Assembly (NCBI GenBank): GCA_902582155.1
Contig: CACHRI010000001.1
Coordinates: 1 to 64,000, forward strand
From: an uncultured Pelagibacteraceae bacterium
GTDB lineage: Bacteria; Pseudomonadota; Alphaproteobacteria; Pelagibacterales; Pelagibacteraceae
Direction of reading: 5' to 3'
Length of the DNA stretch: 64,000 bases
Each line of letters starts with the position of its first letter. Within the stretch, counting starts at the first letter, position 1. The notes beneath the pieces are model-generated. The model made no database searches. It had not been told where the DNA came from and saw nothing but the letters and a program-made list of their open reading frames with translations. A program made the translations under genes and the position numbers. Below, in pieces: positions 17,638 to 23,707 of the stretch.

Positions 17638-18654
17638 GTGAATAATAATCGATACAAAATACTTGTAACTGGTGTAGCTGGTTTTCTTGGATCTCATTTA
17701 TCTGAGAAACTTTCGGCTTTAGGACATACGGTAATTGGAATTGACAACATGATCGGCGGCTATGAGGATAATATTCCTAAAGAGATAGAATTCCACAAAA
17801 TTGATTGCTGTGATTATAAAAAAATAAAACCAATTATGAAGGGAGTTGATATTGTTTATCATTGCGCAGCTACAGCTCATGAAGGTTTATCGGTATTTTC
17901 TCCATATGAAATAACTAAAAATAATTATTTAGCATCAGTTGCAATTTTTTCAGCTGCAGTAAATGAAAAAGTAAAACGAATAATTTTTTGTTCTTCTATG
18001 GCCAGGTATGGTTCTCAAGATTATCCATTTACAGAAGAAATGAGTCCAAAACCAGTTGATCCATATGCAATTTCAAAAGTTGCATCAGAGCAAGTTCTTA
18101 TAAATTTATGTGAGCTCAATAAAATTGAATGGGTGATTGCAGTACCACATAACATAATTGGTCCTAGACAAAAATATGATGATCCTTTTAGAAATGTTGT
18201 TTCAATCATGATAAATAGAATGTTACAAGGAAAAGCTCCGATCATATACGGTGATGGTCAACAAACTAGATGTTTTTCATATATTGATGACTGCTTATCT
18301 TGTATGCTGCCTATGCTAAACCAAAAAAGTTTAAATAAACAAATTATAAATATTGGACCAGACGAAGAATTTGTAACAATTAATAAAGTTGCAGAATTAT
18401 GTTCGAATGTAACAGGAATTAACCTGCCCCCAATATATAGAAAAGACAGGCCTCAAGAAGTAAAACATGCCATTTGCTCCTCTAACAAAGCAAGAAAATT
18501 ATTAAATTATAAAACTCGGGTAGGTCTTGAAGAGGGAATTAAAAAAACTTTTGAGTATATAAAGAAAAGAGGTGTAAAGCCTTTTGAGTATCACATAAAT
18601 CTTGAAATAAATAATGATCTTACACCTGATACTTGGACAAAAAAAGAAATTTAG
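17638..18654 (+). CDS. NAD-dependent epimerase/dehydratase (GalE/UDP-sugar family)
   Basis: Extended short-chain dehydrogenase of 338 residues acting on a nucleotide sugar. It has VTGVAGFLGSHLSEKL near residues 10-25, the cofactor-selecting acidic residue in IGIDNMIGGY near 34-43, CSSMARYGSQ near 120, the YxxxK pair in DPYAISKVASEQ near 141-152, and VPHNIIGPRQKYDDPFRN near 170-187. These support a UDP-glucose/UDP-GlcNAc 4-epimerase-like or UDP-glucuronate-type enzyme; the precise substrate is not clear. The start is GTG at 17638. Its stop interlocks with the stop of apt on the other strand (TTAG), marking the end of the glycan island. Confidence 0.75.
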   Translation: MNNNRYKILVTGVAGFLGSHLSEKLSALGHTVIGIDNMIGGYEDNIPKEIEFHKIDCCDYKKIKPIMKGVDIVYHCAATAHEGLSVFSPYEITKNNYLASVAIFSAAVNEKVKRIIFCSSMARYGSQDYPFTEEMSPKPVDPYAISKVASEQVLINLCELNKIEWVIAVPHNIIGPRQKYDDPFRNVVSIMINRMLQGKAPIIYGDGQQTRCFSYIDDCLSCMLPMLNQKSLNKQIINIGPDEEFVTINKVAELCSNVTGINLPPIYRKDRPQEVKHAICSSNKARKLLNYKTRVGLEEGIKKTFEYIKKRGVKPFEYHINLEINNDLTPDTWTKKEI

Positions 18655-19178
18655 TGACCAGGAAACTCAATTAAACTTTTTGTAAAATATGACTTTTTTT
18701 TAAGAAGATCATTTCCAGGCAGATCGAACAAATTAATTACAAATATAAATCCCGCAACTACTCCTCCAGATAGCTCAATTAATTTTGCCGCTGCTTCAGC
18801 AGTTCCACCGGTAGCTATTAAATCATCGATTATTAGGATTTTTTCTTTTGAATTAATGGAGTCTTTATGCACTTCTATCGTAGCCTCGCCATATTCTAAT
18901 TTAAAATCAACTGAATGCCTCTCAGCAGGTAACTTGTTTTTTTTTCTTAAAAGAACCAATGGTTTATTTAATAGGTATGATACTGCTGAGGCAAATACAA
19001 AACCTCTTGACTCTATTGCTGAAACTTTATCAAATTTTATTTTTTCTGAAATTTTGATTATTTGATCTACTGAATATTTAAAAGCATCAGGGTCTTTTAT
19101 TAAAGTAGTAATATCTCTAAATAATATTCCTTTTTTAGGATAATCAGGTATAGATCTTATATATTTTTTTAAATCCAT
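18651..19178 (-). CDS. apt: adenine phosphoribosyltransferase
   Basis: Salvages adenine with PRPP to give AMP and pyrophosphate. From the ATG at 19178 the protein has 175 residues (an ATG four codons earlier is possible). It shows the opening block YIRSIPDYPKKGILFRDITTL, the ESRGFVFASAVSYLL loop, LVLLRKKNKLP, and the PRPP-binding motif ILIIDDLIATGGTAEAA. It is divergent from mtnP by 40 bases. MtnP releases adenine from methylthioadenosine, so this gene completes the adenine branch of the module that follows. Confidence 0.92.
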   Translation of the reverse strand: MDLKKYIRSIPDYPKKGILFRDITTLIKDPDAFKYSVDQIIKISEKIKFDKVSAIESRGFVFASAVSYLLNKPLVLLRKKNKLPAERHSVDFKLEYGEATIEVHKDSINSKEKILIIDDLIATGGTAEAAAKLIELSGGVVAGFIFVINLFDLPGNDLLKKKSYFTKSLIEFPGH

Positions 19179-19218
19179 ATTTAGCTTCAATAAATAGCAA
19201 AAAAAGGCTAAACATTAA

Positions 19219-20094
19219 ATGATGAAAAAAAGAATTCTTGGGATAATTGGTGGGAGTGGCCTTTATCAAATAGAAGGTTTAGAAAATATAAAGTGGAAAA
19301 AAGTGAACACATCCTGGGGCGAACCCTCTGATAGGATTTTATCAGCCACATTAAACAAAAAAGAAGTTTACTTTGTGCCCAGGCACAAAAGAGGTCACAG
19401 GATAAACCCGTCAAATATAAATTTTAGAGCTAACATAGAGGCGCTTAAGAAAATGGGTGTGACAGATATAGTTTCAGTATCAGCTGTTGGCTCCCTTCAA
19501 GAACATTTAACTCCAGGCTCATTTGTTGTAGTGGACCAATTTATAGACAGAACTTTTGCAAGAATAAAAACATTTTTTGATAAAGAGATAGTTGCTCATG
19601 TTTCAATGGCTAAACCTACAAGCCCTTCATTAATGAAATGTTGTGAGTCTGCTCTAGTTAAATGCCAAATACCTCACCAAGTTGGAGGGACGTATCTAGT
19701 GATGGAAGGACCACAATTCTCAAGTTTAGCGGAGTCCAAAATGTATAGAAGTTGGAAAGCCGACGTTATTGGAATGACAAATATGCCAGAAGCAAAATTA
19801 GCAAGAGAAGCTGAAATAAGATATTGCACAGTCGCAATGGTTACAGATTTTGATTGTTGGCATCCAGACCATGATGTTGTCGATGTTCCTACCGTTGTAA
19901 AAACTTTGCAGCAGAATGCTTCTAATGCTCAAAATATGATTATTGAAATAATAAAAACTTTTGAGTCTTTTAACACAAAAGGAGATCCTGCTAATGATTG
20001 TTTAGATACTGCAATAATTACACCAAAAAAATTTCAAACTAAAAGTACTGTAAAAAAGTTAAAACATATAGCTGGTAGAGTATTAAAAAAATGA
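19219..20094 (+). CDS. mtnP: S-methyl-5'-thioadenosine phosphorylase
   Basis: Splits methylthioadenosine with phosphate into adenine and 5-methylthioribose-1-phosphate. The 291-residue protein has the phosphate-binding ILGIIGGSGLYQ at the N-terminus, VPRHKRGHRINPSNINFRANI near 53-73, the SAVGSLQEHLTPGSFVVVDQ block near 89-108, GTYLVMEGPQFSSLAES near 159-175, and GMTNMPEAKLAREAEI near 185-200, which together define the MTAP/MtnP branch of purine nucleoside phosphorylases. Its end overlaps the mtnA start by four bases (ATGA). Its substrate is the by-product of SpeE activity encoded four genes later in the same direction. Confidence 0.93.
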   Translation: MMKKRILGIIGGSGLYQIEGLENIKWKKVNTSWGEPSDRILSATLNKKEVYFVPRHKRGHRINPSNINFRANIEALKKMGVTDIVSVSAVGSLQEHLTPGSFVVVDQFIDRTFARIKTFFDKEIVAHVSMAKPTSPSLMKCCESALVKCQIPHQVGGTYLVMEGPQFSSLAESKMYRSWKADVIGMTNMPEAKLAREAEIRYCTVAMVTDFDCWHPDHDVVDVPTVVKTLQQNASNAQNMIIEIIKTFESFNTKGDPANDCLDTAIITPKKFQTKSTVKKLKHIAGRVLKK

Positions 20095-21161
20095 AAATTG
20101 AAGGTAAGAATTACCGAACAATTTGGTTTGAAAATAATGAAGTTAAAATCATTGATCAAACCAAACTTCCACATAAATTTATAATTAAAAGTTTAAAAAA
20201 TATAAAAGATGCAATTAACGCTATAAAAACTATGGAAGTAAGAGGTGCGCCTCTTATAGGAGCTACTGCGGCCTATGGATTAGTTCTGTCTATAATTGAA
20301 AAAAACGATTTATCCTTTTTAAAAAAATCAAGTGAAGACTTAATTTCTTCAAGACCTACAGCAATAAATTTAAAATGGGCAGTAGATCGTATGATGAAAA
20401 AATTATCGGGAGTTAATATCAGTGATATTTTGAAAATAGCTTTGGATGAGGCAAAAGCAATAACAGAAGAAGATGTAGAGTTTTGTAAAAATATAGGAAT
20501 TAATGGGGTAAAAATTATTGAGGAAATATCCAAAAAGAAAAAAGATGTAGTAAATATTTTAACCCATTGTAATGCAGGGTGGTTAGCCACAATAGACTGG
20601 GGTACAGCAACTTCCCCAATTTATCATGCTCATCAAAAAGGGATAAAGGTACATGTTTGGGTTGACGAGACTAGGCCAAGAAATCAGGGAGCCAATTTAA
20701 CTTCTTATGAACTAAACGAGGAAAAAATTCCCAATACTATTATTACAGATAATACCGGAGGAATTTTAATGCAAAGAGGAAAGATCGATATGTGTATTGT
20801 AGGTACCGATAGAACATTATCAAACGGTGATGTTTGCAATAAGATAGGCACTTACTTAAAGGCATTGTCTGCAAAAGATAATAACATTCCTTTTTATGTT
20901 GCATTACCAAGCTCAACAATCGATTGGAAAATTAAAGATCATAAAAAAATACCTATTGAAGAGAGAAACCCCGAAGAATTATCCCATGTTGAAGGAGTTG
21001 ATGAAAATAATAAAATTAAAAGAATAAGAATTTACCCACAGAAAAGTAAATCATTAAACTTAGCCTTTGACGTAACACCAGCTAAATTAGTTACAGGATT
21101 AATTACAGAAAAAGGAATTTGTGAAGCATCAGAACAAGGGCTTAAGGTACTATTTAAGTGA
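20091..21161 (+). CDS. mtnA: S-methyl-5-thioribose-1-phosphate isomerase
   Basis: Converts methylthioribose-1-phosphate to methylthioribulose-1-phosphate. The 356-residue protein shows MEVRGAPLIGATAAYG at residues 48-63, the catalytic Cys160 in LTHCNAG, DETRPRNQGANLTSYEL near 192-208, TDNTGG at 219-224, and the catalytic Asp240 in VGTDR; the two catalytic positions fall at the same numbers as in the well-studied Bacillus enzyme. eIF2B-like relatives lack this set. It overlaps mtnP by 4 bases upstream and the class II aldolase by 4 bases downstream, so the three products should be made together. Confidence 0.93.
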   Translation: MKIEGKNYRTIWFENNEVKIIDQTKLPHKFIIKSLKNIKDAINAIKTMEVRGAPLIGATAAYGLVLSIIEKNDLSFLKKSSEDLISSRPTAINLKWAVDRMMKKLSGVNISDILKIALDEAKAITEEDVEFCKNIGINGVKIIEEISKKKKDVVNILTHCNAGWLATIDWGTATSPIYHAHQKGIKVHVWVDETRPRNQGANLTSYELNEEKIPNTIITDNTGGILMQRGKIDMCIVGTDRTLSNGDVCNKIGTYLKALSAKDNNIPFYVALPSSTIDWKIKDHKKIPIEERNPEELSHVEGVDENNKIKRIRIYPQKSKSLNLAFDVTPAKLVTGLITEKGICEASEQGLKVLFK

Positions 21162-21802
21162 AAAAATTAAAAAAAGAAGTTATTAAATATTCAAAAAAAT
21201 TAAATGTTACCAATCTATCAGCTTTAAGATCTGGAAATATATCAGTAAGAGTAAAAGAAAATGGTGTAGAGGGGTTTTATATAACTCCTTCAGGAAGGAG
21301 ATATTCATCACTTAAACCTAATGACATAGTCTTCGTTTCTTTAAAAGGAGTCTATGATAAAAAAAAGGGGAAACCCTCATCAGAGTGGAGATTTCATCAA
21401 GATATTTATGTGAATAAAAAAGAGGCTAAAGCCATTGTTCATGCACATTCTACTTGTGCGACGGCAGTTTCAACCCATCAAAAAAATATTCCAGCATTTC
21501 ACTACATGGTTGCAGTTGCAGGCGGAGAGGACATTAAATGTACTAAATATGCAACTTTTGGAACCAGAGAACTTTCTAAAAATATTATTAAAGCTTTGAA
21601 AAATAGGTCAGCTTGTTTAATTGCTAATCACGGACAAGTTGCTTTTGGTGAAAATTTGGAAAACACTTTTGAGCTTGCGCAAGAGATTGAAAATATTTGC
21701 CATCAATACATAAATGCCATAAGAATCGGAATACCTAAGATTCTTTCAAAAAAAGAAATGAAAAATGTTTTAGGTAGATTTAAAAATTATAAAAAAAGGT
21801 AG
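21158..21802 (+). CDS. class II (FucA-like) aldolase, candidate 5-methylthioribulose-1-phosphate aldolase
   Basis: Zinc-dependent class II aldolase of 214 residues. It aligns by eye over its length with L-fuculose-1-phosphate aldolase: KPSSEWRFHQDIY with the catalytic Glu76, zinc ligands His95 and His97 in VHAHSTCATAV, HYMVAVAGG, YATFGTREL, and the third ligand His158 in IANHGQVAFG. MtnB dehydratases share the fold but differ in these blocks. With mtnP and mtnA directly upstream (GTGA overlap with mtnA) the likely substrate is methylthioribulose-1-phosphate, giving dihydroxyacetone phosphate and 2-(methylthio)acetaldehyde, as in the known DHAP shunt. A deoxypentose- or fuculose-phosphate activity is the alternative. 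The start is GTG at 21158. Confidence 0.78.
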   Translation: MKKLKKEVIKYSKKLNVTNLSALRSGNISVRVKENGVEGFYITPSGRRYSSLKPNDIVFVSLKGVYDKKKGKPSSEWRFHQDIYVNKKEAKAIVHAHSTCATAVSTHQKNIPAFHYMVAVAGGEDIKCTKYATFGTRELSKNIIKALKNRSACLIANHGQVAFGENLENTFELAQEIENICHQYINAIRIGIPKILSKKEMKNVLGRFKNYKKR

Positions 21803-21808
21803 TTTTTA

Positions 21809-22849
21809 ATGGTAAAAGTTGGAGAACATATTACTATCGATTTTTTAGGTGTAAAAAAAGACTACACACCTGAATTTTATGAAAAAATAATATACACAAT
21901 TGCTAAAGCAGCTAAAGTTGAAATTTTAAATGTGGCATCACATCGTTTTCAACCTCAAGGTTTTACGCTAGTTGCATTATTAGCTGAGAGCCATTTTAGC
22001 TTTCATACATTTCCAGAAAAAGGTGTAATAAGTTTTGATTTTTTTACCTGTGGAAAGGTTAATCCAAAAGTTGCTTTAAAAATTTTAAGAAAAGAAATTC
22101 AACATGAAAGAGTTGTGACCAATGCTTTTGATAGGAGCAGTATTGGACTGTACGACGATATTTATAGTTCCCCTGGTCAAAAAAAATATTATGTAGTCAA
22201 AAATGTCCTAGAAAAATTTACATCAAAAGTAGGTCAATTTGTTGAAATAATGGATTTAGAGGAATTCGGCAACGCACTATTCATTGACCATGAAATTCAA
22301 GTTTCAGAAAAGGATGAAAAAATTTATAGCTCTAATTTTTTTAAATCAAGTTATGATTTAAGTAAAAAAAATAATAATGTTGCTATAATCGGGGGAGGAG
22401 ACGGAGGAGTAGCAAGAGCTTGTCTAGAAAACAACTCAAATTATATTGATTGGTTTGAACTCGATCCAGAAATTGTTGATGTTTGTTTTAAACACCTTCC
22501 AAAAGTTTGTTCTAAAGTTAAAAAAAGCAATAAAATTAAAACGTTTTGGGGTGACGCATTTAAAAGTATAAAAGAAATAGAAGACTCGAAGTACGATAAA
22601 ATTTTTGTAGATTTAAATGATGACCAATATTGTATTGATTTAGCAAAAAAAAATATGAAAAATTTAAAAAGAATTTTAAAAAAAGGTGGCGTAATCACTG
22701 CTCAAGTAGGTAGCCAAGATAAAAAACCGAAACAGGTAGAAAAATGGTGTAATGTTTTAGAAAAAAATTTTGGTAATGTAAAACTTTCAGGTGCTTACGT
22801 ACCAAGTTTTGATTGCAAATGGAATTTTGCATCATCAATGATGCGTTAA
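21809..22849 (+). CDS. speDE: fused S-adenosylmethionine decarboxylase and spermidine synthase (SpeD-SpeE)
   Basis: One 346-residue polypeptide carries both steps of aminopropyl transfer. Residues 1 to about 120 are a complete class 1b SpeD: the self-cleavage pair Glu60-Ser61 in AESHFSFHTFPE (Ser61 becomes the pyruvoyl group), His66, and Cys81 in FFTCGK, at the same relative spacing as in the Thermotoga enzyme. Residues about 125-346 are an aminopropyltransferase with GGGDGGVARACLE near 195-207, DWFELDPEIVDVC near 214-226, GDAFKSI near 248, and VDLNDDQ at 267-273 in the place of the usual D-x-x-D-P. Self-cleavage would separate a short SpeD beta chain from an alpha chain that stays joined to SpeE. 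It follows the aldolase by 6 bases. Confidence 0.9.
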   Translation: MVKVGEHITIDFLGVKKDYTPEFYEKIIYTIAKAAKVEILNVASHRFQPQGFTLVALLAESHFSFHTFPEKGVISFDFFTCGKVNPKVALKILRKEIQHERVVTNAFDRSSIGLYDDIYSSPGQKKYYVVKNVLEKFTSKVGQFVEIMDLEEFGNALFIDHEIQVSEKDEKIYSSNFFKSSYDLSKKNNNVAIIGGGDGGVARACLENNSNYIDWFELDPEIVDVCFKHLPKVCSKVKKSNKIKTFWGDAFKSIKEIEDSKYDKIFVDLNDDQYCIDLAKKNMKNLKRILKKGGVITAQVGSQDKKPKQVEKWCNVLEKNFGNVKLSGAYVPSFDCKWNFASSMMR

Positions 22850-22912: not shown

Positions 22913-23707
22913 ATGTTTAGAGTTTCTTGCATTCAAATGTGTTCATCTGATTGTATTAAAGATAATCTTAAAAGAAGTGAAAAACTTATTAAAAAAGCAG
23001 TAAGTCAAAAGGGCAATCTAATTATAACTCCTGAGGTATCATCAAAATTCTCTTTAAATAAAAAGAAACTTTTACAAGTTGCCACAACTATGAATAAAGA
23101 CTCCTATCTTTTAGGTATAAAAAGATTAGCAAAAAAATATAAAAAATGGATTTTAATTGGCTCTTTGATAATAAAAAATAAAAATAAACTATTTAATAGA
23201 TCAGTTCTTATAAATAACAAAGGAAAGATAAAAACTTTTTATGATAAAATTCATATGTATGATGCTAAATTGAGTAAATCAGAAAAATATTTCGAGTCAA
23301 AAACTTTTGAAGCAGGGAAAAATATTAAAGTTGTTAAGCTTCCGTGGGGTAAATTAGGACTATCAATTTGTTATGACTTAAGATTTCCTAATATGTACAG
23401 AAAAATGTCGAAAAAGGGAGCTATTTTTTTAAGTATTCCCTCAGCTTTTACAGAAACTACTGGAAAAAGACATTGGCATACTTTGTTAAAGGCAAGAGCT
23501 ATAGAAAATTTTTCATACATTTTTGCTCCAGGACAAGCTGGAAAACATTGTAATGGAAGAAAAACTTACGGACATTCTTTAATTGTATCTCCTGATGGCA
23601 AAATTTTAAAAGAGCTAGGTAAACGCGAAGGTGTTATCACTACAACTATCGATCCAAAAATACCTATCAAATTAAGAAGAACTATTCCGAGTGTTAATTA
23701 TGATTAA
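22913..23707 (+). CDS. nitrilase-family amidohydrolase (Nit2/omega-amidase-like)
   Basis: Carbon-nitrogen hydrolase of 264 residues with the complete catalytic triad: Glu41 in ITPEVS, Lys112 in FYDKIHMYD, and Cys153 in LSICYDLRFP. The KIHMYDA and RFPNMYRKM segments are typical of the Nit1/Nit2 branch, which includes deaminated-glutathione amidase and omega-amidase acting on alpha-ketoglutaramate. It begins 63 bases after speDE in the same direction. Omega-amidase is sometimes part of methionine salvage (MtnU), which makes its position interesting, but no other late salvage gene is present, so a repair role is equally possible. Its stop interlocks (TTAA) with that of the opposite gene. Confidence 0.82.
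   Translation: MFRVSCIQMCSSDCIKDNLKRSEKLIKKAVSQKGNLIITPEVSSKFSLNKKKLLQVATTMNKDSYLLGIKRLAKKYKKWILIGSLIIKNKNKLFNRSVLINNKGKIKTFYDKIHMYDAKLSKSEKYFESKTFEAGKNIKVVKLPWGKLGLSICYDLRFPNMYRKMSKKGAIFLSIPSAFTETTGKRHWHTLLKARAIENFSYIFAPGQAGKHCNGRKTYGHSLIVSPDGKILKELGKREGVITTTIDPKIPIKLRRTIPSVNYD

Follow-up and report, generated by a model that had tools for sequence, protein, structure and literature searches.

Gene organization at the speDE locus

The window, the whole stretch of 64,000 nucleotides analysed here, belongs to a SAR11 (Pelagibacteraceae) assembly of 0.98 Mb that is 88% complete. At its centre of interest lies speDE, an intact open reading frame of 346 codons that runs from ATG to TAA with no internal stop (Table 1). 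Three genes stand directly upstream on the same strand, with 4-base overlaps between mtnP and mtnA and between mtnA and the aldolase gene; apt is transcribed divergently and a carbon-nitrogen hydrolase gene follows downstream. The initial annotation had placed speDE with the enzymes for its by-product, 5'-methylthioadenosine (MTA), and this is borne out by mtnP, mtnA and the aldolase gene upstream, in an order that recurs across related loci. Of 80 such loci, 63 have the complete arrangement of apt (-), mtnP, mtnA, aldolase, speDE, nitrilase-like gene and DUF6165 (-); the remaining 17 lack a match for at least one flanking gene, and several of them are short on one side. In 79 loci, 6-14 bases separate the aldolase gene from speDE immediately after it; the sole exception is a locus that is short upstream and starts ~468 bases before speDE. 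With regard to riboswitch control of the operon, the window gave no Rfam match except two tRNAs. For the carbon-nitrogen hydrolase, the closest model is deaminated glutathione amidase, at a score far under the cut-off (210 versus 500 bits).

Table 1. Features of the speDE locus, in window coordinates
Feature	Position	Strand	Basis
apt, adenine phosphoribosyltransferase; divergent neighbour, adenine salvage from MTA	18651..19190	-	TIGR01090, 196 bits vs 186
mtnP, 5'-methylthioadenosine phosphorylase	19219..20094	+	TIGR01694, 297 bits vs cut-off 275
mtnA, 5-methylthioribose-1-phosphate isomerase	20091..21161	+	TIGR00512, 428 bits vs cut-off 279
Class II aldolase, FucA/DrdA-like; probable 5-(methylthio)ribulose-1-phosphate aldolase (Ald2 role) of a DHAP shunt	21158..21802	+	Sequence and context
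speDE, fused class 1b S-adenosylmethionine decarboxylase-aminopropyltransferase, 346 aa	21809..22849	+	ORF, Pfam/NCBIfam, published SAR11 orthologues
AdoMetDC (SpeD) domain, residues 7-109; E60/S61 processing site, H66, C81	21827..22135	+	PF02675
Interdomain linker, residues 107-125, without in-frame ATG	22127..22183	+	pLDDT <50, sequence
Aminopropyltransferase (SpeE) domain, residues 119-338; GGGDGG 195-200, DLND 268-271, PSFD 332-335	22163..22822	+	Pfam, PDB alignments, homologue alignment
Carbon-nitrogen hydrolase, deaminated glutathione amidase-like; usual downstream neighbour	22913..23707	+	Pfam, NCBIfam, gene order

Domain architecture and catalytic residues

The two halves of the protein are recognized by distinct models. 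AdoMet_dc (PF02675) covers residues 7-109 (E=4e-27, 95.1 bits versus a cut-off of 25), and the SpeD half also scores above the NCBIfam cut-off for the Bacillus subtilis-type, class 1b AdoMetDC (TIGR03330; 94.8 versus 75.65 bits). In the SpeE half, Spermine_synt_N (PF17284) covers residues 119-167 (E=2e-5, 24.7 bits versus 22.1) and Spermine_synth (PF01564) residues 171-338 (E=2e-24, 86.6 bits versus 22.9). Matches in the PDB follow the same partition, with AdoMetDC proenzymes over residues 2-118 and spermidine or thermospermine synthases over residues 122-341. SpeD and SpeE are thus joined in one polypeptide with no stop or start between them, as the initial annotation had stated: both Pfam domains lie in a single frame and the linker contains no in-frame ATG. 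Its placing of Glu60-Ser61, His66, Cys81 and GGGDGG is likewise exact. The motifs read AESH from residue 59 (E60, S61 and H62), FFTCG at 78-82, DLNDD at 268-272 and VPSF at 331.

The SpeE half scores well under the cut-offs of the full-length speE equivalog models (98.6 versus 249.6 bits for TIGR00417 and 122.6 versus 260 bits for NF002010). It is a divergent aminopropyltransferase, with superfamily membership intact and the label 'spermidine synthase equivalog' withheld. This divergence is in line with the spermine (Spm) and thermospermine (Tspm) activity of the SAR11 orthologues.

Residues E60, S61, H66 and C81 are invariant across 113 homologues, down to ~62% identity, and the same is true in the 113 of GGGDGG, D268 and D271; the Pro of DxxDP is absent. 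The initial annotation had contrasted the catalytic stretch VDLNDDQ with D-x-x-D-P. The final Pro is indeed replaced, but the D-x-x-D itself is present and without variation: D268, L269, N270 and D271 never change, and D272 and Q273 each vary once. In the alignment with the solved aminopropyltransferase 7xif, D268-L-N-D271 faces D-L-T-D-P, with the acids kept and Pro alone replaced. Because both acidic residues are retained, the stretch alone predicts no altered acceptor, contrary to what had been read from it. Loss of catalysis through VDLNDDQ can be ruled out, as D268 and D271 are invariant and SAR11 orthologues are active. The stretch is a lineage signature rather than damage. At the C-terminus, SpeDE shares P-S-F with 7xif, where spermidine synthases have P-T-Y; this fits triamine acceptors, but does not prove them.

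Function of the SAR11 fusion enzyme

SpeDE is an already known fused polyamine enzyme of SAR11, ordinary for its group. The arrangement, which the initial annotation treated as new, is published and family-wide, and its main unknowns have been answered for orthologues by two studies (PMC11107197 and PMC8437039). In the first, the AdoMetDC-aminopropyltransferase (APT) fusions of Ca. P. ubique HTCC1062 and Ca. P. sp. HTCC7211 (WP_011282223 and WP_008544956) were tested in 2024: they restore spermidine in an Escherichia coli speD deletion strain, which establishes that the AdoMetDC domain works, produce Spm and Tspm in strains deleted for speE and speG, and form norspermidine (Nspd) from diaminopropane (PMC11107197). 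The suggestion that the acceptor could differ from putrescine is therefore covered, for SAR11 orthologues, by published acceptors beyond it. In the second study, from 2021, the SAR11 enzyme is described as a known gene fusion of broad substrate range, published as such by Green et al. (2011, Mol Microbiol 81:1109). It is proposed there also to run backwards, breaking down environmental spermidine (PMC8437039). The HTCC1062 and HTCC7211 proteins resemble SpeDE in their N-terminal class 1b AdoMetDC, their C-terminal APT, the single APT of the genome and their membership of the same group, and no difference from SpeDE is known. AdoMetDC-APT fusions of other bacteria similarly carry both enzymes in one polypeptide; the title of Green et al. 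(2011), as cited in PMC8437039, gives the fusions independent evolutionary origins. The SAR11 fusion shows how streamlined cells make triamines and tetraamines from one gene.

With high confidence, the window gene encodes this SAR11 bifunctional AdoMetDC-aminopropyltransferase, with MTA handled by the operon partners. The class 1b domain would cleave itself between Glu60 and Ser61, Ser61 becoming the pyruvoyl cofactor, and would give a beta chain of ~6.8 kDa and an alpha chain of ~32.7 kDa bearing the SpeE domain (masses of 6.8 and 32.7 kDa are computed from the sequence for a cut at this site). The class 1b mechanism, together with the gene order, implies that SpeE should stay attached to the pyruvoyl chain. 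The processed SpeD domain would then decarboxylate SAM, and the SpeE domain would move the aminopropyl group to putrescine and then to spermidine, leading to spermidine and spermine or thermospermine, with diaminopropane also usable. For the SpeDE protein itself, we infer both cleavage and activity. The AlphaFold model (21 sequences) has a pLDDT of 68.6 and a pTM of 0.51, a confidence too low for a fold search or for active-site geometry or a channelling distance to be read from it; residues 107-125, below 50 pLDDT, are modelled as an uncertain and perhaps flexible linker. Channelling of decarboxylated SAM (dcSAM) by the fusion, as put forward in the initial annotation, finds no support in this analysis or in the cited papers, and the model is neutral on it.

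An alternative that we consider unlikely is that the SpeE domain, altered at VDLNDDQ, has another main reaction or acceptor, for instance agmatine in an N1-aminopropylagmatine route. It would account for the replaced Pro of DxxDP and for a C-terminal PSFDCxWNF where spermidine synthases have PTYP; moreover, the genome encodes an agmatinase and an ODC-fold decarboxylase, of a type that in SAR11 has proved to be an arginine decarboxylase (ADC), and agmatine was used by 17 of 18 spermidine synthases in PMC11107197. However, the two catalytic acids are kept throughout the 113 homologues, and spermidine, Spm/Tspm and Nspd are all products of the SAR11 orthologues that were assayed (PMC11107197). 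Were SpeDE to use agmatine, this would extend its activities rather than make it a different enzyme.

It is far less probable that the SpeD domain is a neofunctionalized pyruvoyl arginine or ornithine decarboxylase that feeds agmatine or putrescine to its own SpeE half. SpeD homologues with these activities do occur in bacteria and in pelagiphage HTVC201P (PMC10407285 and PMC9992855), but the genome, at 88% completeness, shows no other SpeD for the supply of dcSAM and has its own PLP-type decarboxylase and agmatinase, the domain scores over the TIGR03330 cut-off for AdoMetDC equivalogs, and SAR11 orthologues complement the speD deletion (PMC11107197). Profile searches of the genome (88% complete) gave one PF02675 match and one convincing PF01564 match. 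SpeDE is the sole SpeD and the sole SpeE found there, so that the separate speD and speE genes for which the initial annotation had allowed do not appear in it. A candidate second speE on contig C4 of the assembly (locus L003) was rejected, being a weak PF01564 match in an ORF of another type, which reads, by its sequence, as a cyclopropane-fatty-acid-synthase-type methyltransferase.

Distribution of the fusion

The nearest speDE loci are 83-99% identical over the full length and all belong to Pelagibacteraceae/Pelagibacterales (SAR11). These near relatives include Ca. Pelagibacter ubique HIMB058 and SCGC AAA795-E07, and two records named Ca. P. ubique are 91-92% identical to the SpeDE protein. 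In viral contigs, a search for close relatives found no phage-borne fusion. An origin of the fusion in misassembly or in a frameshift that merged two neighbouring genes, a notion to which the frequent occurrence of separate and adjacent speD and speE in other Alphaproteobacteria (G353, G310 and G444) lends some colour, can be dismissed, since 110 of 112 homologous ORFs from many related assemblies are exactly 346 aa long, the remaining two ending at contig edges, and the orthologues cloned in the literature are fusions (PMC11107197). From the same separate arrangement, in which speD and speE are commonly neighbours in the wider class, the fusion would be expected to derive.

A SpeD match is present in 201 of 248 genomes sampled from the order. 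The open frames listed are nearly all ~346-361 aa, the length of a fusion; a few are shorter, at 121-245 aa. Most of these SAR11 bacteria carry the fused gene. Two genomes of the same order, both of family f2 (G039 and G050), have much weaker SpeD matches (E ~1e-15), and the fusion query finds nothing there; these matches may reflect a stand-alone speD or a decarboxylase with changed specificity. A SpeD match is absent from two genomes of the same genus (G177 and G199) and from further Pelagibacteraceae genomes that are >87% complete. Such genomes may truly have lost spermidine synthesis, or the gene may fall in a gap of the assembly.

Fate of MTA

The aldolase encoded upstream of speDE matches FucA at 4.5e-46 and the structures 6btd/6btg at 3e-38. 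The latter, a fuculose-phosphate-aldolase entry, we take to be the 5-deoxyribulose-1-phosphate aldolase DrdA of Bacillus thuringiensis. The MtnB model scores far below its cut-off on this protein (69 versus 137 bits), which by sequence is FucA/DrdA-like rather than MtnB-like. Other components of canonical methionine salvage are similarly missing from the searches. In the genome (88% complete), MtnK and MtnC have sub-threshold matches only and no RuBisCO-like protein was found; ARD (MtnD) was not found in any of 61 genomes, many of them incomplete, in a search that gave matches in five of 14 control genomes and reached the cut-off in two. Collectively, the genome does not show canonical salvage (MtnB, MtnC/MtnW-X and ARD), and what is present, namely MtnP, MtnA and a class II protein of aldolase type, not MtnB, is the gene set of an MtnP-type DHAP shunt.

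Because the aldolase is not MtnB-like and the other methionine-salvage genes were not found, MTA probably goes via this shunt. MtnP would convert MTA into adenine and 5-methylthioribose-1-phosphate (MTR-1-P), MtnA would isomerize MTR-1-P to 5-(methylthio)ribulose-1-phosphate (MTRu-1-P), and the class II aldolase is probably the enzyme that cleaves MTRu-1-P, a substrate suggested by sequence and gene context, to DHAP and 2-(methylthio)acetaldehyde. Enzymes of the MtnP form of the shunt are described in Rhodospirillum rubrum and Rhodopseudomonas palustris (MtnP-MtnA-Ald2; PMC5893883). The SAR11 locus likewise brings together MtnP, MtnA and a class II aldolase, but the genes lie directly upstream of the speDE fusion, the role of the aldolase is a predicted one, and with no RuBisCO-like protein found in the genome there would be no isoprenoid-shunt backup. 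The E. coli shunt (Pfs-MtnK-MtnA-Ald2; PMC10986504) shares the module of isomerase and aldolase; the SAR11 genome differs in having MtnP and no MtnK above the cut-off. A literature search, with most subscription papers outside its coverage, found no report of a DHAP shunt in SAR11.

It is tempting to propose that SAR11 unites SAM decarboxylation, aminopropyl transfer and MTA disposal in one compact conserved cluster, in which an aerobic MtnP-MtnA-aldolase DHAP shunt replaces canonical salvage and agmatine is maybe a direct acceptor; we regard the chances of this composite picture as evenly balanced. If it is true, SAR11 polyamine synthesis would release adenine and DHAP together with a methylthio compound that is volatile or can be used again. 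Given a DHAP shunt, these very abundant bacteria of the ocean would form 2-(methylthio)ethanol or methanethiol as they make polyamines, which would link SAR11 polyamines to marine sulfur chemistry.

Diamine supply and agmatine

Contig C4 of the assembly carries, in a row, genes for an ODC-fold decarboxylase, a deoxyhypusine-synthase homologue and an agmatinase-family protein. In a SAR11 cluster of like make-up, arginine proved to be a substrate of the decarboxylase (PMC9992855). Given agmatine in the cell, its use as a direct acceptor by SpeDE is plausible; the accessible part of PMC11107197 contains no agmatine result for the SAR11 fusion. The deoxyhypusine-synthase homologue (L105:2601-3647) scores above the cut-off of NF002699, '1,9-bis(guanidino)-5-aza-nonane synthase' (572 versus 500 bits), and, on this assignment, may condense agmatine, not putrescine, before agmatinase acts.
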